From a virus, in the IMG/VR virus record IMGVR_UViG_3300042988_000088, positions 1-21,269 of that record: 21,269 nt of DNA; one strand, given 5' to 3'. Below are positions 305-20,435 of this stretch, one piece after another. The notes under the pieces are model-generated. The model saw nothing but the letters and a program-made list of their open reading frames with translations, was not told where the DNA came from and did not search any database. The translations under genes were made by a program, and so were the position numbers. Numbering within the stretch: the first letter of the stretch is position 1; each line of letters opens with the position of its first letter.

Positions 305-808
305 GTGAAGCAATACATCGGCACCAAGCTCATCAACGCCATGCCCATGACCCGGCAGGCGTACAACGACCTGCGCGGCTGGACGCTCCCCGCTGACGAG
401 AACGGCGCTGACGAGGGCTATCTCGTTGAGTACCTGGACGGCGGCAAGGCCAATGTCCCGGGCTTCCTGGGCTACATCAGTTGGAGCCCGGCTGACGTGT
501 TCGACCGGGCCTACCGGCCGATCTTCGGCATGACCTTCGGTATGGCCATCGAGGCGCTGAAGGCTGGCCAGCGGGTGACTCGCGCCGGGTGGAACGGCAA
601 GGGCATGTGGCTGGTGCTGGTGCCGGGCACGCCGTCCGTCACGACAGCACCCGGCACGCCGTACCGCAAGGCGGGCATCGAGCAGTGCGAAATCCTGCCG
701 CACATTGATATGTGGACGGTCAACGCGCAAGGCCGCCGCGCCATGCTGCCGGGCTGGCTCGCCAGTCAGAGCGACATGCTGGCCGACGACTGGATGATCG
801 TCGAATAA
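305..808 (+). CDS. Two-domain protein with C-terminal DUF2829 / Tad2-like (anti-Thoeris) domain
   Basis: A 167-residue protein with a GTG start behind AAGGGGG (294-300). Residues 1 to about 72 form a small domain seen in many phage proteins, with the pattern GxK.....M...Y.....EGYLVEYLDGG......YISWSPADVFDRAYR. Residues 76-167 match DUF2829: MTFGMAIEALKAGQRVTRAGWNGKGM, then HIDM, then the characteristic end GWLASQSDMLADDWMIVE. DUF2829 includes Tad2, which forms tetramers that sequester the cyclic ADP-ribose signal of the Thoeris defence system. The 92-residue domain is the length of a stand-alone Tad2, so it looks complete. Odd points are the N-terminal fusion, a proline/threonine-rich insert (two PGTP repeats) mid-domain, and the placement between scaffold and capsid genes. 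Family membership is well supported; anti-defence activity is inferred. Confidence 0.8.
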   Translation: MKQYIGTKLINAMPMTRQAYNDLRGWTLPADENGADEGYLVEYLDGGKANVPGFLGYISWSPADVFDRAYRPIFGMTFGMAIEALKAGQRVTRAGWNGKGMWLVLVPGTPSVTTAPGTPYRKAGIEQCEILPHIDMWTVNAQGRRAMLPGWLASQSDMLADDWMIVE

Positions 809-6276: not shown

Positions 6277-7884
6277 ATGCCTGTGATCGCACTGGTGGGT
6301 TTTGCCGGTGAGAACCGGGCCATCCACCCCAAGCTGCTGCCCGATCCGGTCGGCACGGTTTCGCGCAACCAGAAGCCGGGCCGGGGCGACCTGCGATCAT
6401 GGAAACAGCCCACCACCGTGGCCTCCGTGCCGGGCGGCCGGCAGACCATCTACCGCATGGGCCGCGACGTTGCCAGCGACAGCCAGTATTGGCTTTCGTG
6501 GACTGGCGTGGTGCACGCCGTGCGCGGCTTCGATGCGCAGGACACCACCGAGCGCACCTACTTCACGGGCGACGGGGCGCCGAAGGTCACCGACAACGTG
6601 ATGGCGCTGGCGTCAGCGCCTTACCCGACCACCAGCCGGCCCCTGGGCGTGCCAGCGCCGACATCGCCCCCGCTGGTATCGACCGACACCGGCACCTGGG
6701 AAGGCGAGACGGAGACGTATTTCTACGTCTACACCTACGTCAACGATTGGGGCTGGGAGTCGGCGCCGTCACCGGTCAGCTTGCAGAACGAGCGCCCAAG
6801 CGACGCCACCGCCACGATCAGCGGGTTCGTGAACCCAGCGGCCGGCAACTACCAGGTCAACCGCATCCGGGTGTACCGAACGCAGACCGGAGCGGCGGGC
6901 GCGGAGTTCTTCTTCCTGCGCGAGATTGCGCTCGGCACGGCCTCCTTCAAGGACACCAACGGCACTCTGGGCGAGGTGCTGCCAACGGCCACGTGGTCGA
7001 TGCCGCCCTCGGACCTGAGCTTTCTGACGACGCTGTGGAACGGCATGCTGGCCGGCATCAGCGGCAACTCGGTGCGCTTCTGCGAGCCGTACACGCCTTA
7101 CGCCTGGCCGGGCTCCTACGATGTCATCCCACCGGACAGCAAGCCCGTGGGCTTGGGCGTGGTCGGCCAGTCGCTTGTCGTGCTCACCACCGGCCGCCCG
7201 CTGCTGGTGGCGGGCTCATCGCCCGAGGCTATGGATCAGCAACCGCTCGACCTGCCGCAGGGCTGTGTGGCGCCGCGCTCGATCGTGTCGATGGGCTCCG
7301 GCGTGGCTTGGGCCTCCGAAGACGGCCTGTGCTGGTATGGCGCTGGTGGTGCCCGCATCCTGACGGCCGGCATCATGACACGCGAGGACTGGCAGGCCAT
7401 GAACCCGGCCAGCATCATCGGCCGGTTCTACGAGGGCCTGTACTTCGGCAGCTACCTCGACGGCGCGACGCGGCGCGGGTTCATGATCGACCCCAACAGT
7501 CCGCAGGGCGTGTTCTTCCTCGACGCTGGCTACGTGGCCATGCACTTCGACGAGTTGAAGGACCAGCTTTACGTGCTGTCGGGCGCCGACGTGCAGAAGT
7601 GGGACGCCGGCCAGCCGTTCACCTACCGCTTCCGCTCTAAGGTCTTCAAGGCGCCGAAGCCGACGAACTTCGCGTGCTGCGAAGTCGTGGCCGACGCCTA
7701 CCCGGTGACGGTGCGGGTCTTCGGTGACAACGAACTCCGGCACACCGAGGAAGTCGCCGGCCGTGGCCTGTTCCGCCTGCCGTCCGGGTTTATGGCCACC
7801 GACTGGCAGATTGAGGTGGAGGGCACAAACCCCGTGCAGAGTGTCGCTATCGCGCATGCCGTCACCGAACTGAAGAACGCATGA
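6277..7884 (+). CDS. Tail nozzle-like protein A (T7 gp12-type architecture)
   Basis: A 535-residue protein with AGGGGG about seven bases before the ATG. It is clearly homologous to the protein at 16384-18123: shared blocks include LLPD.....N....G.L near the N-terminus, TIY..G......W..W..VV.AV.G..AQD, YTGDGAPK-like FTGDGAPK, Y(V)YTYV.D.G.ES, R(I/V)YR.QTG, VLP...WS.PP, L.NGM.A...G, FCEPY.P.AWP..Y and S.DGL..YGA. The middle region (find the object, give its position value, test a tag in [14 protein letters not shown]) resembles the platform of podovirus tail nozzles such as T7 gp12, which form a hexamer at the tail tip. That assignment is inference from pattern. The ATGA overlap with the next fibre gene indicates tight coupling. 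Confidence 0.6.
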
Positions 7885-11478: not shown

Positions 11479-14439
11479 ATGTCATCATTGCTACGACTCA
11501 CAAACAACGGCATCAGCACGCTACCGGCTGGCGCAGCGGCCGACGCCACCTCGATCACGGTGGCCACGGGCGAGGGCGCCCGGTTCCCGACCCTGAGCGC
11601 TGGTCAGTATTTCATGGCCACCCTCGTGCAGTCGGGAACCGCCTTGGAGATCGTGAAGGTCACTGCCCGATCAGGCGACGTGCTGACCGTCACGCGGGCC
11701 CAGGAGGGCACCACGGCCCTGACGCTTCCGGCTGGCTCGCGCATCGAGCACCGGCTGACGGCCGGCACCTTGCTGACCGAGTTCGCCAGGATCGACGCCG
11801 ACATCCTGGACCTGCAAGACCTGGTGGGCACCAAGCAAGATGCCCTCGTCTCGGGCACCAACATCAAGACCGTCAACGGCTCAAGCCTGCTGGGCTCCGG
11901 CAACCTTCAGATCGACGTCGGCGTCACTGCCTTCAACACGCGCACGGGCGCCGTCACGCTGACCTCGGGCGACGTCACCACGGCGCTGGGCTACACGCCC
12001 TACAACAGCACCAACCCGAACGGCTACATCACGTCCTCGGCGTTGACGCCATACCTGACTGCCGCGACGGCAGCAGCCACCTACCTGGCGCTTGCCGGAG
12101 GCACGCTGGCCGGAGCGCTCACCTACAGCCCCGGCACTGCCAACGGCCTGCTGTTCCTCAACGGCAGCAAGGTGGTCAGCAGTGGAGCGGGGTTGACGTT
12201 TGATGGGGTGAGTCTCGGGATCGGGACGGGCTTGCCCCTTCACCGCCTTCATGCAGTAACGTCAAACTCCGCTGGCGTGGCCCTGTTTGAAAGCGCGTCC
12301 AGTTCGGCGGTGGCTATTGGCCTTAAAAACACCGCATCGCCCCAGTTCTACACGCAGTTGGTATCTGAGGGCGACAACTTCTACGTCCAGACCAACGGTT
12401 CCGCCAGATTCTGGGTTGACGGCGCGGGGAATGCGGGCCTGGGGGTGCTGCCGAACACCTGGAGCCAACTTAAAGCAATGCAGATTGGCATGGGCGCTGC
12501 ATTCTCCGGGCACGGCTTCTACCCGGATGCGTACATGAATAGCAACGCCTATTACGACGGGGCAACTTGGCGCTATATCGTCAGTTCACAAGCTGCACTT
12601 GGTTTTGACGCTCGTGCAACTTCGGGCGAGTTTGTTTGGCTAGCCGCCCCTCCCGGAACCGCAGGTAGTCCGATTCCCTTCAGCAATGCTATGACGCTGA
12701 ATTCTTCGGGGGAATTGGTTGTCGGGTGGAGCGGTGCGACTGGAAATAAGCTGATTGTTGGCGGCGTCACAAGGTCTGCACAGCAGGGCCTTCGTAACGC
12801 GCTTGCGTTCAGTATTGACAATACATCAGGCGCACCTACTTGGGCGCAGCAAAATCTTATTGGTCACTATTACACTGGATCGCAAGACGCAATATCTATT
12901 CGCGTTCCATCGTATAGCAATTCAAACACCGCTAGTTACGACATTCTTGCGGATGGAACGCACATTCTGTACGCGGCTGGCGGCGGCGGCAACACTGGAT
13001 CAGCAGCAAGCGAATTAGTCCGTATTTCCGCTTCAGGGAACGCTTTATTCAACACGCCAGTTGGAGTGCATAACGCCACGGTCACCAACGTTTCCAACAT
13101 AGGTGGCGGGGTCACGATTCGCGGAACAGGAAGTGGCCCTAACAGCCGGGTTGGCCTGTTCTTGCAGGGCTCTGACCGTATCGGAGCCGCGATTGCTGCT
13201 GCACGCGAGGACTCGGGTCTGACGTGGAGAACGTACCTCGCGTTTTACACGAATAGCTTAACAGGCGGCGACACCCAAGACATCCAGGAAAGCATGCGCC
13301 TGGATTCGAGAAAAAACCTTGGAGTAGGGGTTGTGCCAATGCCTTGGACGCAGGGGCAGGCACTGCAAGTTGGCTCTACGGCCTACGGCTCTATTTCCGA
13401 TAACGGATTTTCTGCGTTCTCTTTTGGGACGAATTACTACATCAATTCCGGTGTTAACCGATACATCGGAGACGGGTATTCGGCTGTGTACTCTCAGGAG
13501 GCGGGTGCACACAAGTGGTTCACTGCCCCCTCTGGCACAGCAGGCTCTGAGGTTCCCTTCAACGGTCCGAAGATGATGCTGTCCCAGGTAGGAAATTTTC
13601 TGGTAGGCACGACCACCGTAAGCAACATATTTGGTCTTACGCACACTTTTGCGAACGCGGGAGGCAGTTCGACAATAGCGGTACAAGGCAACAGCGGCAC
13701 TGGATATATTGCTGCAATCGGTGCTGACACTGATATCGGCACCATCACCTCCGGGGGCGCCTTGCTACTTTCGGTCGCCAATGGGAATGCAGCCCGCATC
13801 ACCTCTGGCCGCTATTTCAAGGTTAGTAATACCGGCGTTTACTCGGTCACAAACCTTCTATCTGGAGTTGAAGCCACTCACCAGTTTGTAAGCAATAGCT
13901 CTATAAATCCGGCCGTATGGATTTCCAACAGAGACGGCTCAGTTGGTTCTTTGTTCCTAAGTTTGCCCGCGTCAAACGCGGCTGGTGACTATATTCGCTG
14001 TTTCGAGGAGGCAGGCGCTCAGACCGTTTTCAGAATTCGTGCAGATGGCAACGTTCAAAACACCAACAACTCCTACGGCGCAATCTCTGACGCCAAGCTG
14101 AAGAACGTCATCGGTGCAGTTTCGTCCACCTGGGAAAAGACCAAAGCCTACGAGTGGGTGGAGTACACGCTGAAGTCCGACCCGAGCGCGACGAAGTTGC
14201 TCGGCCTTGTGGCGCAGCAGGCGCAGGCCGTTAGCGGGGGGGTCATTGAGTCCACGCCTGACGTTGACCCAAAGACCAAACAGCCGACCGGCGATGTCAC
14301 GCTGGGCGTGAAGTATTCGGTGGTGTCCATGCAGTACCATCGCACCGTGCAGGAGGCCCAGCATCGCATCGAGGCGCTGGAGCAAGCCCTGCATCAACTC
14401 TTGCAGCGGATCGCTGCGCTTGAAACCCAAGGAGCCTGA
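11479..14439 (+). CDS. Tail fibre/spike with C-terminal S74 intramolecular chaperone
   Basis: A 986-residue protein. Residues 1 to ~95 (LTNNGISTLPAG...GEGARFP...EIVKVTAR...RAQEGT..L.LPAGSRIE.RLT) are an anchor homologous to the start of the collar fibre at 15450. A shaft section AFNTRTGAVTLTSGDVTTALGYTPYN follows. Residues ~238-867 are a lower-GC region carrying two diverged copies (~318-418 and ~613-713) of a unit G(V)LP..W.Q..A.Q.G..A......GF...N.YY......RYI...W..AP.GTAGS..PF. The end is a peptidase S74 domain: SDAKLKNVIG starting at Ser870, LGLVAQQ, KYSVVSMQYHRTVQEAQ and a final coiled coil (IEALEQALHQLLQRIAALE). S74 domains trimerise the fibre and then cut themselves off at the SD step; here about 116 residues would be released. 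Likely a receptor-binding or depolymerising fibre; no depolymerase motif is recognised. Confidence 0.88.
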   Translation: MSSLLRLTNNGISTLPAGAAADATSITVATGEGARFPTLSAGQYFMATLVQSGTALEIVKVTARSGDVLTVTRAQEGTTALTLPAGSRIEHRLTAGTLLTEFARIDADILDLQDLVGTKQDALVSGTNIKTVNGSSLLGSGNLQIDVGVTAFNTRTGAVTLTSGDVTTALGYTPYNSTNPNGYITSSALTPYLTAATAAATYLALAGGTLAGALTYSPGTANGLLFLNGSKVVSSGAGLTFDGVSLGIGTGLPLHRLHAVTSNSAGVALFESASSSAVAIGLKNTASPQFYTQLVSEGDNFYVQTNGSARFWVDGAGNAGLGVLPNTWSQLKAMQIGMGAAFSGHGFYPDAYMNSNAYYDGATWRYIVSSQAALGFDARATSGEFVWLAAPPGTAGSPIPFSNAMTLNSSGELVVGWSGATGNKLIVGGVTRSAQQGLRNALAFSIDNTSGAPTWAQQNLIGHYYTGSQDAISIRVPSYSNSNTASYDILADGTHILYAAGGGGNTGSAASELVRISASGNALFNTPVGVHNATVTNVSNIGGGVTIRGTGSGPNSRVGLFLQGSDRIGAAIAAAREDSGLTWRTYLAFYTNSLTGGDTQDIQESMRLDSRKNLGVGVVPMPWTQGQALQVGSTAYGSISDNGFSAFSFGTNYYINSGVNRYIGDGYSAVYSQEAGAHKWFTAPSGTAGSEVPFNGPKMMLSQVGNFLVGTTTVSNIFGLTHTFANAGGSSTIAVQGNSGTGYIAAIGADTDIGTITSGGALLLSVANGNAARITSGRYFKVSNTGVYSVTNLLSGVEATHQFVSNSSINPAVWISNRDGSVGSLFLSLPASNAAGDYIRCFEEAGAQTVFRIRADGNVQNTNNSYGAISDAKLKNVIGAVSSTWEKTKAYEWVEYTLKSDPSATKLLGLVAQQAQAVSGGVIESTPDVDPKTKQPTGDVTLGVKYSVVSMQYHRTVQEAQHRIEALEQALHQLLQRIAALETQGA

Positions 14440-15327: not shown

Positions 15328-15449
15328 TACCACTGGCAAACCCTTCGCGCCTATAATCGGCGCCATGCGGCTGTTCCCCAACCCCCTGCGATCACGAGAC
15401 GACAGCGCTCAAGCGTATGTCGCTCTCGTTCGATCATCATGGGGGTTCT
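15328..15449 (+). promoter_or_regulatory. Possible promoter upstream of the collar fibre gene
   Basis: This 122-base gap is the longest in the window. It contains a perfect -10 hexamer TATAAT (15352-15357) bracketed by the inverted repeat GCGCC (15347-15351) / GGCGC (15359-15363). No -35 consensus lies 16-18 bases upstream. A 46-codon open frame begins at ATG 15365 and runs into the fibre gene in another frame; it is not supported as a gene. No U-tract terminator is seen. Promoter function is tentative. Confidence 0.3.
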
Positions 15450-16379
15450 ATGGCCGTCAAACTGGCAAACAATGCCGTATCCCGCCTTGCCGGGAACATC
15501 ACTAATTCCGCGACCACACTGAACCTGGTGCCTGGGGATGGCGCCAGGTTTCCCGCCATCACGGCGGCCGGTGACTGGTTCCCTGTCACACTCGTGAAGG
15601 CCGACGGCGATCTTGAGATTGTCCGATGCACAGGCCGATCTACTGACACACTGACGATCGAGCGAGGCCAGGAAGGCACGGCGACGCTGGCCTTCAGCGC
15701 GGGCGACCGGGTGGAGCTTCGCCTGACCATGGCGGCCATGAGCGAGATCATGCTGCCGCCCGGCACCGGCCCGCTGCCGTGGTCCCTTCCGACCGAGCCG
15801 ACAGGCTGGATTTTCTGCGACGGCCGCACGCTGTTGTCGGACACGCCTTACGGTGCACTGCGGGCGGCCTACATCGCGGCCGGCTTCCCGCATGGCCAGG
15901 ACGGCAGCGGCAACCCCAAGATACCCGACATGCGCGGGCGGGTGCCGGCTGGTGTGGACAACATGGGCGGCACGGCCGCGAACCGGGTCACGGCGGGCGG
16001 CTCCGGCATCGCCGGCACGACGCTCGGGGCGGCCGGTGGCGCCGAAACCCACACGCTCACCAGCGCCCAGATGCCGACGCACGCGCACGGCGTCACCGAC
16101 CCGACCCACGCCCACAGCGTCTATGACCCGGGGCACCGCCACAACCAGCGCTTCATCGAGGCGACGTCCGGCTACGGGTTGCAGAGCGGGTCCAGCTTTT
16201 TCAGCGGCCGGATTTCCGTCGCGGACACCGGGCTCAACGGCTTTGACGTGGACACGGGCTACACCGGCATCGGCATCTACGGCGCGGCCACCGGCATCTC
16301 GATCCAGAACGCCGGCTCGGGTGGGGCACACAACAACACCCAGCCGACGGTGATGATGAACTACATCGTCAAGACCTGA
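15450..16379 (+). CDS. Collar-domain tail fibre protein
   Basis: A 309-residue protein. ATG 15450 is chosen because the anchor homology begins there; the frame has an earlier ATG at 15417 giving 11 extra residues. Residues 1 to ~95 are the anchor shared with the S74 fibre (LANNAVSRLAG...GDGARFPAITAAG...TLVKADGDLEIVRCTGR...RGQEGT). Residues ~110-190 are a phage tail collar domain: PTGWIFCDGRTLLSDTPYGALRAAY, DGSGNPKIPDMRGRVPAGVDNMGG and ANRVTAGG. Next come GGAETHTLTSAQMPTHAHG, then HAHS and HRHN, three His-x-His motifs like those that bind metal in T4-type fibres. The end GGAHNNTQPTVMMNYIVKT is the standard collar-family finish. It is probably a short trimeric fibre that shares a docking site with the S74 fibre. 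Confidence 0.88.
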   Translation: MAVKLANNAVSRLAGNITNSATTLNLVPGDGARFPAITAAGDWFPVTLVKADGDLEIVRCTGRSTDTLTIERGQEGTATLAFSAGDRVELRLTMAAMSEIMLPPGTGPLPWSLPTEPTGWIFCDGRTLLSDTPYGALRAAYIAAGFPHGQDGSGNPKIPDMRGRVPAGVDNMGGTAANRVTAGGSGIAGTTLGAAGGAETHTLTSAQMPTHAHGVTDPTHAHSVYDPGHRHNQRFIEATSGYGLQSGSSFFSGRISVADTGLNGFDVDTGYTGIGIYGAATGISIQNAGSGGAHNNTQPTVMMNYIVKT

Positions 16380-16383
16380 AGCC

Positions 16384-18123
16384 ATGGCGACGCTGAAGCT
16401 GATGCAGTTCTTGGGCGAGATACCGCGCCTGTTGCCCCGTCTGCTGCCCGACACCGGGGCGCAGTTGGCCAAGAACGTCCGCCTGGACGATGGCGGCCTG
16501 ACGCCCACCAGGCGCAAGCGGGCCGTGCACACCGTCACCGGCATCGAGGGCGAGGTGAAGACCATCTACAAGCACGGCGAGACGTGGCTTGCCTGGGGCG
16601 AGGTGGTCAATGCCGTGCCGGGCCCGGTGGCACAAGACCGGCTCTACTACACGGGCGACGGTGCCCCCAAGATGCGGGTCGGCACCACGGTGTACGACCT
16701 CAAGGTGCCATCGCCGACGGCCGCACCCACGGCCAGCGTGTCGGGCGTGGGCACGGGCGACGTCATCACCCGGGTCTACGTCTACACCTTCGTCACCGAC
16801 TTCGGCGAGGAAAGCCAGGCCTGCCCGGCATCGAACGACGTGAACTGGCAAGCCGGCCAGACGGTGACGCTCTCCGGCATGCAGGCCGCACCTGCGGGGC
16901 GCGGCATCACCAAGCAGCGCATCTACCGCTCGCAGACCGGCGTGACGTCGGGCACCGACTTCTTCCTGATCGCCGAGCGCACGGCATCGAGCACCAACTT
17001 CACCGACACCGTGGCGGCCGACGACTTCGCCGAGGTGCTGCCGTCGCGTGACTGGAGCCCGCCGCCCGACACCATGCAGGGCCTGATCTCACTGCCCAAC
17101 GGCATGATGGCGGCCTTTGACGGCAAGGAACTGTTGTTCTGCGAGCCCTACCAGCCGCACGCCTGGCCGCAGAAGTACCGGCTGGCCATGGACTACCCCA
17201 TCGTGGCGCTGGCGGCCTACGGCACGGCCGTCCTGGTGACCACGGCAGGCCAGCCATACATCGTGGCCGGCGCGGCGCCCGAGAACATGCAGCAGGAGCA
17301 CATGGAGGTGAACTTCCCGTGCATCAACGCCAGGGGCATGGTCGATCTTGGGTACGGTGTGGCCTACCCATCGAAGGACGGGCTTGTCGTGGCCAGCGGC
17401 GCCACGGCGGAGATCGGCACGCAGGCGCTGATGACGCGCAACGACTGGCTCAAGACGTCGCCTGGCACTTTCGTGGCCGGCCAGTATTCCGGGCGGTACT
17501 TCGCCAGCTTTGAGTATCTGGAGGCAGACGGCACGCCAAGCCGGGGCACGTTTATCTTCGACCTGACCACCCAGACACCGTTCATGCTGCGCAACGGCGA
17601 GAAGGCCGACGCCTTCTTCTACGACATCACCGAGGCAGCGCTCTACATGCTGATCGGCCGCACGATCTACGAGTATGACCCGCTGGGCGAGATCAACGAG
17701 ATCATGTCGTGGCGGTCCAAGGAGTTCATCTTCCCGGCGATGTCCAGCTTCGGGTGCATGCTGATCGAGGCCAGCACCGTCAAGACGCCGGAGGAAGAAG
17801 CGGCCGACGCCGCCGAGCGCCAGACCATCGACGCCGCCAATGCCGTGCTGTTCGCGCAGCCGTCCATCGGCGGGGAGTTCGGGGCGCCCCTCAACGAGCG
17901 ACCCATCAACGGCGACGCCTTGCAACGCCTGGTGCCGGAGCAGTTCACGGTGGTGGAGGTCTTCGCCGACCGGCGCCTGGTGGCCACCGTGAGCACGGTG
18001 AACCAGCCCGTGCGCCTGCCATCCATTCCCCGGTACCGCAGTTGGGAGGTGGTGGTGAACGGCACGGCCAGGATCGAGCAGATCACCATGGCCACCACCA
18101 TGCGCGAACTCAACACCGTGTGA
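16384..18123 (+). CDS. Tail nozzle-like protein B, paralogue of 6277-7884
   Basis: A 579-residue protein starting five bases after the collar fibre, without a clear Shine-Dalgarno, so probably translationally coupled. The N-terminus (LMQFLGEIPRLLPRLLPDTGAQLAKNVRLDDGGLTPTRRK) has the pattern of T7 gp12-like nozzle proteins: a G..PR..P.LLP..GAQ.A.N....DG.L.P.R start. The middle LPNGMMAAFDGKELLFCEPYQPHAWPQKYRLAMDYPIVALAAYGTAVLVTTAGQPYIVAGAAPE parallels the gp12 region that tests object values. It aligns along almost its whole length with protein A but carries an extra acidic insert near residue ~465 (TPEEEAADAAERQTIDAANAVLF). Two copies in one virion region are unusual. The two may form different rings, or one may be a specialised fibre-docking or tip protein. 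Confidence 0.65.
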   Translation: MATLKLMQFLGEIPRLLPRLLPDTGAQLAKNVRLDDGGLTPTRRKRAVHTVTGIEGEVKTIYKHGETWLAWGEVVNAVPGPVAQDRLYYTGDGAPKMRVGTTVYDLKVPSPTAAPTASVSGVGTGDVITRVYVYTFVTDFGEESQACPASNDVNWQAGQTVTLSGMQAAPAGRGITKQRIYRSQTGVTSGTDFFLIAERTASSTNFTDTVAADDFAEVLPSRDWSPPPDTMQGLISLPNGMMAAFDGKELLFCEPYQPHAWPQKYRLAMDYPIVALAAYGTAVLVTTAGQPYIVAGAAPENMQQEHMEVNFPCINARGMVDLGYGVAYPSKDGLVVASGATAEIGTQALMTRNDWLKTSPGTFVAGQYSGRYFASFEYLEADGTPSRGTFIFDLTTQTPFMLRNGEKADAFFYDITEAALYMLIGRTIYEYDPLGEINEIMSWRSKEFIFPAMSSFGCMLIEASTVKTPEEEAADAAERQTIDAANAVLFAQPSIGGEFGAPLNERPINGDALQRLVPEQFTVVEVFADRRLVATVSTVNQPVRLPSIPRYRSWEVVVNGTARIEQITMATTMRELNTV

Positions 18124-18394: not shown

Positions 18395-18453
18395 GGTAGC
18401 CGCCTGGGCATGGAATCGCTACAATGGTGGCAGTTTCGCACCAGTGTAGCCAC
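18395..18453 (+). promoter_or_regulatory. Gap with -10-like box and two GTAGCC motifs before the acetyltransferase
   Basis: The gap holds GTAGCC at 18396-18401 and 18446-18451, and TACAAT (18420-18425), a five-of-six match to the -10 consensus without a recognisable -35. The second GTAGCC lies within GTAGCCACATG, which includes the proposed start codon, as at 11470-11481. No Shine-Dalgarno is present. An internal promoter for the ejection gene cluster is possible. Confidence 0.2.
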
Positions 18454-18885
18454 ATGACCGCAAGGCTGATCTACGGCGATGAAGGCCGGCTCTTGCCCTG
18501 GGCGCAGGAGCGCATCGGCGTGTCTTTCCGTGCCGACGCCTACACGATCGGCCTGGAACGCAGCGGCCGGATCGCGGCGGTGGTGGTCTACGACACCTTC
18601 AGCGAGGCCGATTGTTGCATGCACATCGCCAGCGACGGCACCCGGGCATGGATGACCAAGGCCTTGTTGCTGGCGGCCTTCGCCTACCCATTCGTCCAAC
18701 TCGGCCTGCGGCGCGTCACGGGGGTGGTGGCGGCAAGAAACCACGAGGCCCTGGCCTTCGATGAGCACCTCGGTTTCCGGCGCGAGGGCCTTCACCCGCA
18801 CGGGCTCCGCGACGATGACCTCATCACGCTCGGCATGCTGAGACAGGATTGCCGGTTTATTCCAGAGGAATACAGACATGGGTAA
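18454..18885 (+). CDS. GNAT-family N-acetyltransferase
   Basis: A 143-residue protein. ATG 18454 matches where family members begin (MTARLIYGDEGRLLPWAQERIG); ATG 18424 would add ten unrelated residues. The second half carries the GNAT acetyl-CoA fold signature: PFVQLGLRRVTGVVAARNHEALAFDEHLGFRREG (from about residue 78), followed by the last strand ..DDDLITLGMLRQDCRFI. Similar GNATs recur in the late regions of phages. They could acetylate a virion protein, a host protein or a small molecule, and the substrate cannot be read from sequence. Its 3' end overlaps the start of the next gene by eight bases, tying it to the ejection protein gene. Confidence 0.82.
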   Translation: MTARLIYGDEGRLLPWAQERIGVSFRADAYTIGLERSGRIAAVVVYDTFSEADCCMHIASDGTRAWMTKALLLAAFAYPFVQLGLRRVTGVVAARNHEALAFDEHLGFRREGLHPHGLRDDDLITLGMLRQDCRFIPEEYRHG

Positions 18886-19708
18886 GAGCAGTTCTTCCGC
18901 ACCGGCACCCGATCCGAACATCGGCGCCGCCGCCCTCAAGAACGCGCAGCTTGGCGAGGAATGGCTGAAGTTCGCCCGCGATCAGTTCGACGTCGGCAAC
19001 GTCCGCCAGGAGGAGCTGGATGAACTGACGCAGCGCGTCATCGAGCAGCAGATGGACACCCAGGACGAGACAAGCGCCTGGGCCCGCGAGGATCGACAGC
19101 GCACCAAGACTGTCTTCCAGCCGCTGCAAGACGAGTTCATCCAGGAGGCTCGCACCTACGCCAGCCCGGCGAAGCAGGAGCAGGCAGCCGCCGAGGCCGC
19201 CGCCGATGTCACGCAGGCGCTGACCACTCAGAGCCAGATCAACAAGCGCAACATGGCCCGCATGGGGATCAACCCCAACTCGGGCCGGTATCAGGAAACG
19301 CAGCGCCTGGACGACTTGAGCACCGCCTTGGCAGTGGCTGGCGCCAAGAATTCGACCCGCCAGCAGGTGCGCGACAAGGGCCTGATGCTCAAGGCTGACG
19401 CCATCAACGTGGGCTCGGGCCTGCCGTCATCCACCGCCGCCGCCTACGGGATCGGCCTCAATGCCGGCAACTCCGCCACAGGCAACGCGACGCAGGCCAA
19501 CGGCAACTGGCGGGCGAACACGGGCATCGTCGGGCAGGGCTTCGGCGGCGCTATGCAGGGCTACGCCAACCAGGGCAACATCCTCAACAACCTGTACGGC
19601 AACCAGGTGCAGGCATGGCAGGCCCAGCAGCAGGCCAACGCCACCAGCGCGGCCGGCATCGGCAGCATGGTGGGCACTATCGCGGGCGCCGGGATCACGG
19701 TGTTCTGA
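18878..19708 (+). CDS. Internal virion / ejection-type protein
   Basis: A 276-residue protein with AGAGGAA (18864-18870) seven bases before the ATG. The N-terminus (MGKSSSSAPAPDPNIGAAALKNAQLGEEWLKFARDQFDVGN) is a recurrent start among podovirus internal proteins. A long helical body follows (RQEELDELTQRVIEQQMDTQDETSAWAREDRQRT, then AAAEAAADVTQALTTQSQINKRNMARMGINPNSGRY). The C-terminal third is Gly/Asn/Gln/Ala-rich and ends in a small-residue hydrophobic segment (AAGIGSMVGTIAGAGITVF) suited to membrane insertion. Such proteins are packed in the head and ejected into the cell envelope to form the DNA conduit (T7 gp14-16-like role). This is inferred from character and position; no enzymatic motif is visible. 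Confidence 0.65.
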   Translation: MGKSSSSAPAPDPNIGAAALKNAQLGEEWLKFARDQFDVGNVRQEELDELTQRVIEQQMDTQDETSAWAREDRQRTKTVFQPLQDEFIQEARTYASPAKQEQAAAEAAADVTQALTTQSQINKRNMARMGINPNSGRYQETQRLDDLSTALAVAGAKNSTRQQVRDKGLMLKADAINVGSGLPSSTAAAYGIGLNAGNSATGNATQANGNWRANTGIVGQGFGGAMQGYANQGNILNNLYGNQVQAWQAQQQANATSAAGIGSMVGTIAGAGITVF

Positions 19709-19709
19709 C

Positions 19710-20435
19710 ATGCAGGACACCATCAGCCGCCACCAGCGCATCGCCCTCCAACTGTCGGGCGGCCGCGACTCGCTCGCCTGCCTGTACCTGATGCGGCCCT
19801 ATTGGGACCGCCTGACGGTTTACTGGTGCAACACGGGCGACCCGTTCCCCGAGACGGTGGCGCTGATGGAGCGCATCCGCGCCGAGGTGCCGCGCTTCGT
19901 CGAGATCGCCGGCCGTCAGCCGCAGGTGGTGGCGGAGTTCGGCATCCCGACCGACATCCTGCCGGCCAGCCACACGCCCATGGGCATCGCCGGATCGGGC
20001 AATGGCGCCGCGCCGATGCAGGACCGCTACTCGTGCTGCCTGCGATCCTTCATGCTGCCCATGCACGAGCGCATGGTGGCCGACGGCATCACGCTCATCG
20101 TGCGCGGCCAGAAGAACGCCGACCGCCTGAAGGGCCCGCTGCGCTCCGGCCAGGTGGACGGCGGCATCGAATACCTGTTCCCGATCGAGGGCTGGACCGA
20201 CCGGCAGGTGATGGACTTCCTGCGCGAGCAGGGCGTAAAGCCACCGCGCTTCTACGAGGTTCTGCCGGCCGCACCCGACTGCATGACGTGCTCGGCCTGG
20301 TGGGAAGAAGGTTTCTCCCGGTACCTGAAGCGCTACCACCACCCGCAGTACCAGGAGGTCCAGCGCCGGCTGGACGTCATCCGCGAGGCCGTTGGCCAGC
20401 ACATCGCGCATTTCAACGACGAGGTGAACACATGA
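19710..20435 (+). CDS. PAPS-reductase-like PP-loop protein with CC...CxxC iron-sulphur motif
   Basis: A 241-residue protein; ATG 19710 follows the previous stop by one base. The PP-loop nucleotide-binding motif SGGRDS is at residues 16-21, followed by VYWCNTGDPFPET. Cys109-Cys110 (YSCCLRSFMLPMH), RGQKNADR, FPIEGWTDRQVMDFLREQG and Cys191-x-x-Cys194 (DCMTCSAWW) follow the order found in assimilatory APS/PAPS reductases. The CC...CxxC set is the [4Fe-4S] ligand set of the APS-type enzymes. The catalytic C-terminal ECG(L/I)H is absent, so normal sulphonucleotide reduction is unlikely. Related phage proteins have no settled function; a thiolation or other nucleotide-activating reaction is conceivable. 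It is inserted between two ejection-type genes with ATGA overlap downstream. Confidence 0.82.
   Translation: MQDTISRHQRIALQLSGGRDSLACLYLMRPYWDRLTVYWCNTGDPFPETVALMERIRAEVPRFVEIAGRQPQVVAEFGIPTDILPASHTPMGIAGSGNGAAPMQDRYSCCLRSFMLPMHERMVADGITLIVRGQKNADRLKGPLRSGQVDGGIEYLFPIEGWTDRQVMDFLREQGVKPPRFYEVLPAAPDCMTCSAWWEEGFSRYLKRYHHPQYQEVQRRLDVIREAVGQHIAHFNDEVNT

Follow-up and report, generated by a model that had tools for sequence, protein, structure and literature searches.

The open reading frame at positions 305-808 of a 21,269-nucleotide viral DNA fragment (IMG/VR record IMGVR_UViG_3300042988_000088; hereafter the window) encodes a 167-residue protein that is probably a nucleotide-signal sponge with an accessory N-terminal module (N-module); its gene would be exchangeable cargo for counter-defence, located in a slot between the scaffold gene and the CsrA-like and capsid genes. 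The module-Tad2 fusion is common and is already a catalogued family (phrog_872; phage N4 gp49). What is new here is not the fusion but the company that the N-module keeps across the Tad2, Acb4 and crAss001_48 families, and the value of the finding lies in the shared module and the slot. Phage sponges have mostly been discovered singly, through genetic or biochemical screens, and a module that recurs on Tad2, Acb4 and a third family provides a sequence handle for finding more phage counter-defence proteins.

Genomic context

The source phage is a Bcep22-like podophage, and the nearest named phages by DNA are the Burkholderia phages JC1, CSP3 and BcepMigl and their relatives. The window is a 21-kb fragment, and its edge falls inside the gene upstream of ORF 305-808. 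This scaffold-like gene is homologous to the gene that follows the portal gene in CSP3 and JC1. The genes around the ORF all lie on the + strand and comprise the scaffold-like, CsrA-like, capsid, head adaptor and tail genes. An earlier note on this DNA placed the ORF between the scaffold and capsid genes; its location in the head-gene operon holds, but the CsrA-like gene separates it from the capsid gene. The features of this region are as follows:

2-295, + strand: C-terminal part of the scaffold-like gene, whose 5' end lies beyond the window (phrog_8246, E 1.1e-24)
294-300, + strand: Shine-Dalgarno-like AAGGGGG, read directly, overlapping the upstream stop codon (293-295)
296-818, + strand: variable cargo slot between the scaffold and CsrA genes, empty in most related phages
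305-808, + strand: Tad2-like protein of two domains and 167 aa, with a GTG start (phrog_872 match to aa 2-167, E 1.4e-58)
305-520, + strand: N-terminal module, aa 1-72, without a family name (AlphaFold2 pLDDT 96.1; conservation in 134 sequences)
530-805, + strand: Tad2-like domain, aa 76-167, with motifs RAGWNGKGM and GWLASQSDMLADDW (PF11195, E 2.1e-24; Foldseek PDB matches)
819-1034, + strand: CsrA-like regulator, 71 aa (PF02599, E 9.6e-7; phrog_8397, E 7.4e-22)
1131-2231, + strand: major capsid protein, N4-gp56 family (TIGR04387, E 8.9e-80; PF13252, E 4.5e-75)

A consensus scan of positions 1-2400, which is a weak test, gave no sigma-70-like promoter and thus no internal early promoter of the kind that the earlier note considered. 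A PADLOC search gave no match. The CsrA-like gene is found at the scaffold-capsid position in most related phages too.

The Tad2-like domain

The earlier note claimed a full Tad2-like domain at residues 76-167, and the profile search bears this out. PF11195 matches residues 76-166 over its entire length (1-73 of 73) with 86.3 bits against a cut-off of 25, and all core motif residues are present. The sequence matches in the PDB are SptTad2, HgmTad2/AcrIIA7, ModTad2 and SPO1 Tad2, with SptTad2 and HgmTad2 the best of them. A comparison with solved Tad2 structures, which the same note had suggested, was made with an AlphaFold2 model of the monomer (mean pLDDT 94.0) and agrees with the assignment: all 24 of the 24 significant Foldseek matches in the PDB are Tad2 structures (TMt 0.65-0.84). 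The top matches are ModTad2 with hisADPR (E 2.0e-8, TMt 0.81) and HgmTad2 with 1',2'-cADPR (E 3.6e-8), and SptTad2 and SPO1 Tad2 are also among them.

The alignment behind the structure prediction has 142 rows, 23 of which are module-Acb4 proteins; for the Tad2 part, the remaining 119 were analysed separately. Alignments with these 119 relatives and with SPO1 Tad2, ModTad2, SptTad2 and HgmTad2 revealed that the core motifs F..A....K.G..R.GWNGKGM and W..SQ.D.LA.DW are kept. A WLASQ[TS]DM motif is common to the ORF product, SptTad2 and HgmTad2. The stretch from GKGM to the tryptophan of GWLASQ is 49 residues long here, 42 in SPO1 Tad2 and ModTad2, 54 in SptTad2 and 60 in HgmTad2; since 49 is intermediate between the length solved with ADPR-type ligands (42) and the lengths also solved with cyclic di-GMP (54-60), the ligand class is not readable from the length.

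The known Tad2 proteins (SPO1 gp34.65, ModTad2, SptTad2 and HgmTad2) resemble the ORF product in domain sequence, core motifs and predicted fold, but they are short, mostly about 90-105 residues, and lack the N-module, whereas the ORF product, at 167 residues, adds 72 and is not a single-domain protein of the SPO1 Tad2 type. Among 369 cellular genomes from a single class, only 3 have PF11195.

The N-terminal module

The fusion of the Tad2 domain to a second phage domain of ~72 residues, also described in the earlier note, is confirmed. The N-module is conserved and distinct, and the phrog_872 match (profile 14-172 of 172) includes it. Purifying selection acts on the N-module and the Tad2 domain alike, with dN/dS of about 0.07-0.37 and synonymous sites that are saturated in some pairs. 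When modelled alone from 134 sequences, the N-module gives a confident beta-alpha-beta-beta-alpha fold with the conserved pattern GxK ... GYLVEYxDGG ... GYxSWSPxxVFxxAY, and K8, G38, Y43, S59, P62 and Y70 are invariant across these sequences.

No Pfam model matches the N-module, and its fold gave no significant match in the PDB. A second structure comparison yielded a chromodomain likeness with a best Z of 2.5, which is not meaningful. The BFVD matches at E <= 0.001 seemingly belong to the module's own family (36-66% identity); one is named Tad2-like and the others are unnamed. The crAssphage module, used as a query against viral contigs, gave no matches. A protein in the corresponding slot of locus L403 (2416-2793) contains the stretch GDYLV..DGY....PKDVFERKYRP, with a weak match to PGDYG (PF14083), and aligns with the N-module at an hhalign probability of 93 over 28 columns. 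Going by this likeness, the N-module may be one member of a broader phage superfamily.

Spread of the fusion and partners of the module

The earlier note took the fusion to be unusual, and this is contradicted by the full-length phrog_872 match, by N4 gp49 and by the at least 598 relatives that were found in a scan of viral contigs. A tblastn search of named phages matched 294 records, in 89 of which at least 80% of the protein is covered. Phage N4 gp49 (YP_950527.1), in phrog_872, has the same two-domain architecture over its full length. Its gene, which the record annotates with no function, adjoins that of the virion RNA polymerase and immediately follows the Acb4-family gp48, whereas ORF 305-808 lies in the head-gene operon. 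The setting differs among other relatives: the gene has lysis genes next to it in Kapi1 and Louie, recombination genes in Vibrio 44E38.1 and, as in N4, the virion RNA polymerase gene in ECBP1. In Skulduggery it precedes the portal gene, and in phiAH14a it has a head morphogenesis gene on one side and the capsid gene on the other. In Erwinia phage phiEaP8 the module stands alone (78 aa), at the position that gp49 occupies in N4 next to the gene for the virion RNA polymerase.

A census of module proteins collected 281 distinct sequences, whose domains were assigned with separate HMMs and Pfam; the queries were the module or module-Tad2, so the sample is biased and its proportions are not population frequencies. 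The search for other DUF2829 proteins with the same N-module, an idea of the earlier note, was productive in this sample: 183 proteins are module-Tad2, and in 11 more the Tad2 or module match is split in two. Module-Acb4 accounts for 31 proteins (plus 1 split) and module-c48, in which the partner is crAss001_48 (PF21825), for 18 (plus 1 split). Longer chains are module-c48-Tad2 (9 proteins), module-Acb4-Tad2 (3), Acb4-module-c48 (3) and module-c48-Acb4 (1), and the remaining 20 consist of the module by itself or with some other tail. Multi-domain cases checked with Pfam (PF11195, PF13876 and PF21825) were confirmed, with PF13876 just below the cut-off in the module-c48-Acb4 protein of L313. 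The existence of the module with Tad2, Acb4 and crAss001_48 in several orders is secure. The proteins of L120, L126 and L316, which join the module, Acb4 and Tad2 in a single chain, are predicted double sponges.

SPO1 Acb4 (gp1.3) and eight homologues bind 3'3'-cGAMP, and PF13876 is the Acb4 family (PMC11722364). The same paper describes the Acb4 fold as unrelated to that of Tad2 and mentions extra extensions on some Acb4 homologues; the portions covered here name no shared module. Many members of the Acb4 family, whose ligand is cGAMP, bear the same N-module as the ORF product, for example crAssphage gp41; the product itself has no PF13876 domain in a Pfam search. The crAss001_48 proteins with the same N-module, such as that of Burkholderia phage CSP3 (WBF05205.1), occupy the same genomic slot, but their C-terminal domain differs from Tad2 and is helical-looking. 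No publication naming the shared module was found in the accessible literature outside the primary Tad2 papers.

Acb4 is also a neighbour of module-Tad2 genes. It is the commonest family among 98 genes that adjoin them (8 of 98, with the Acb2/Tad1 hairpin protein found once), in a set that may contain some module-Acb4 loci. A second count used 120 loci with called genes, in which the module-Tad2 proteins have no Acb4 domain. Acb4 is found at 15 of 234 positions one gene away, at 0 of 223 second positions and at 3 of 944 positions from the third gene outwards, so that it adjoins module-Tad2 genes well above chance; Fisher's test gives p 9e-9, which is only a guide given that the sequences are related. 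In Pseudomonas phage Skulduggery, gp07 (L084:4559-4861) lies directly upstream of the module-Tad2 gene and overlaps its start; its match to the Acb2/Tad1 hairpin is weak (E 2.3e-5) and falls short of the cut-off.

The scaffold-CsrA slot

A survey anchored on the capsid gene identified 50 loci that have both the scaffold and the CsrA genes. The gap between them is short in 43 of these and holds an insertion of more than 150 bp in 7, and in 5 of the 7 the insertion encodes Tad2, Acb4 or module-c48 (domains confirmed by Pfam). The slot of L382, whose capsid protein is 95% identical, holds a Tad2 without the module and an Acb4. Those of L383 and L245 (87%), which are near-identical to each other, hold module-c48. 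A Tad2 without the N-module and an Acb4 occur in L386 (3107-3693), and module-Tad2 and an Acb4 in L387 (2926-3692). The other two insertions encode an 85-aa membrane-like protein (L384) and the 125-aa protein of L403, in which a short PGDYG-like motif resembles the second half of the module. The JC1 slot is empty.

Five further loci were found through the module, outside the 50-locus survey, and are not independent of it. Their slots contain module-Tad2 (L099), a 98-aa gene and module-c48 (CSP3), module-c48 and Acb4 (L204), and the module with a tail of no known kind (L137); in L199 (845-1928), consecutive genes for module-c48, a stand-alone Tad2 and Acb4 each overlap by 4 bases. The scaffold-CsrA gap behaves as a cargo site that is often filled by sponge-family genes, which describes its cargo behaviour and not the function of the genes.

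Not every Tad2 or Acb4 needs the N-module, because module-free versions fill the same slot in close relatives. L386 and L387 are near relatives with apparently the same Acb4 gene, and the adjacent Tad2 differs by the N-module, absent in L386 and present in L387. They constitute a natural pair for probing the role of the module.

Proposed function and alternatives

The Tad2-like domain, presumably assembled as a tetramer, would bind and sequester a TIR-derived immune signal, most likely a cyclic ADP-ribose isomer or His-ADPR. Tad2 domains vary in ligand, which includes gcADPR, His-ADPR and cyclic dinucleotides, and for this reason the label anti-Thoeris is not certain. A sponge for another signal, such as the cyclic dinucleotides of CBASS instead of Thoeris signals, is possible but rather unlikely. 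It agrees with the titles of the SptTad2 and HgmTad2 structures with cyclic di-GMP (8wjd, 8kbk), these two being the best sequence matches and sharing the WLASQ[TS]DM motif, and with the most frequent neighbour being Acb4, an anti-CBASS sponge. A review ties cyclic-dinucleotide binding by Tad2 to a long insertion (PMC12043709), which counts against this alternative, and the inter-motif stretch of 49 residues, between 42 and 54-60, is intermediate and not decisive.

If the Tad2-like domain were an oligomerising scaffold, the main activity would reside in the N-module, which might bind or hydrolyse another signal or a host protein. The module equals the Tad2 domain in conservation, has varied partners and stands alone in phiEaP8; this reading is nevertheless improbable, given that the Tad2 core motifs are fully conserved and that module-free Tad2 proteins fill the same slot in L382 and L386. 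The position of the gene between the scaffold and capsid genes would suit a head-assembly or virion protein that reuses an old Tad2-like fold, but JC1 and the majority of the 50 loci in the survey lack the gene at this position, and relatives lie beside lysis, recombination or virion RNA polymerase genes, which makes such a role very improbable. An anti-CRISPR function is suggested by the other name of HgmTad2, AcrIIA7, by the deposition of 8kbi as 'Inhibitor of Type II CRISPR-Cas system' and by the annotation 'anti-CRISPR protein' of relatives in some records. HgmTad2 was also solved with 1',2'-cADPR and with cyclic di-GMP and the neighbours are sponge genes, and this function is very improbable here.

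Within the preferred reading of a nucleotide-signal sponge, the N-module would be an accessory domain common to other phage sponge-type proteins, which might perhaps aid oligomerisation, raise the affinity or supply a second site for binding. The earlier note suggested that the module could target the protein or bind a different ligand; a role in sponge function is plausible given its association with three families, two of which are sponges.

The sponge gene would be exchangeable cargo that is co-directional with the head genes. The earlier note regarded late expression of a counter-defence gene as unexpected; this is doubtful, although the timing itself is a prediction from gene order. In staphylococcal and streptococcal Thoeris the trigger is the major capsid protein (PMC12578639), in these cases that of siphophages and not of the N4-gp56 family. 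Since the capsid protein itself can trigger some Thoeris systems, late expression is not paradoxical, and sponge genes recur in the same slot of related phages. The sponge would be encoded just upstream of the capsid trigger and hence produced alongside it. The location of the slot next to the capsid gene thereby offers a testable idea on when counter-defence against capsid-sensing immunity must be made. As a tentative and broader proposal, the N-module could have a function in phage nucleotide-signal sponges generally and be exchangeable among them. It would then join the structurally unrelated Tad2 and Acb4 families, point to PF21825 as a third family of sponges or signal handlers that has gone unrecognised and, in Bcep22-like phages, occupy a dedicated slot beside the capsid gene, where the sponge would be co-produced with the trigger of the alarm.

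Other features of the window

Rfam and tRNA searches of the window gave no matches. The genes at 6277-7884 and 16384-18123, 8.5 kb apart, encode paralogous proteins without a Pfam match that are 35% identical over 517 aligned columns. The fibre-like protein at 11479-14439 has a Peptidase_S74 (endosialidase chaperone) match, and an N-terminal domain of ~94 residues (46% identity) is common to it and the tail-collar protein at 15417-16379. An acyl-CoA N-acyltransferase-like gene is located at 18424-18885 (phrog_4470, E 9.6e-50), and a PAPS-reductase-like gene lies within the structural region at 19704-20435 (PF01507, E 2.7e-8).
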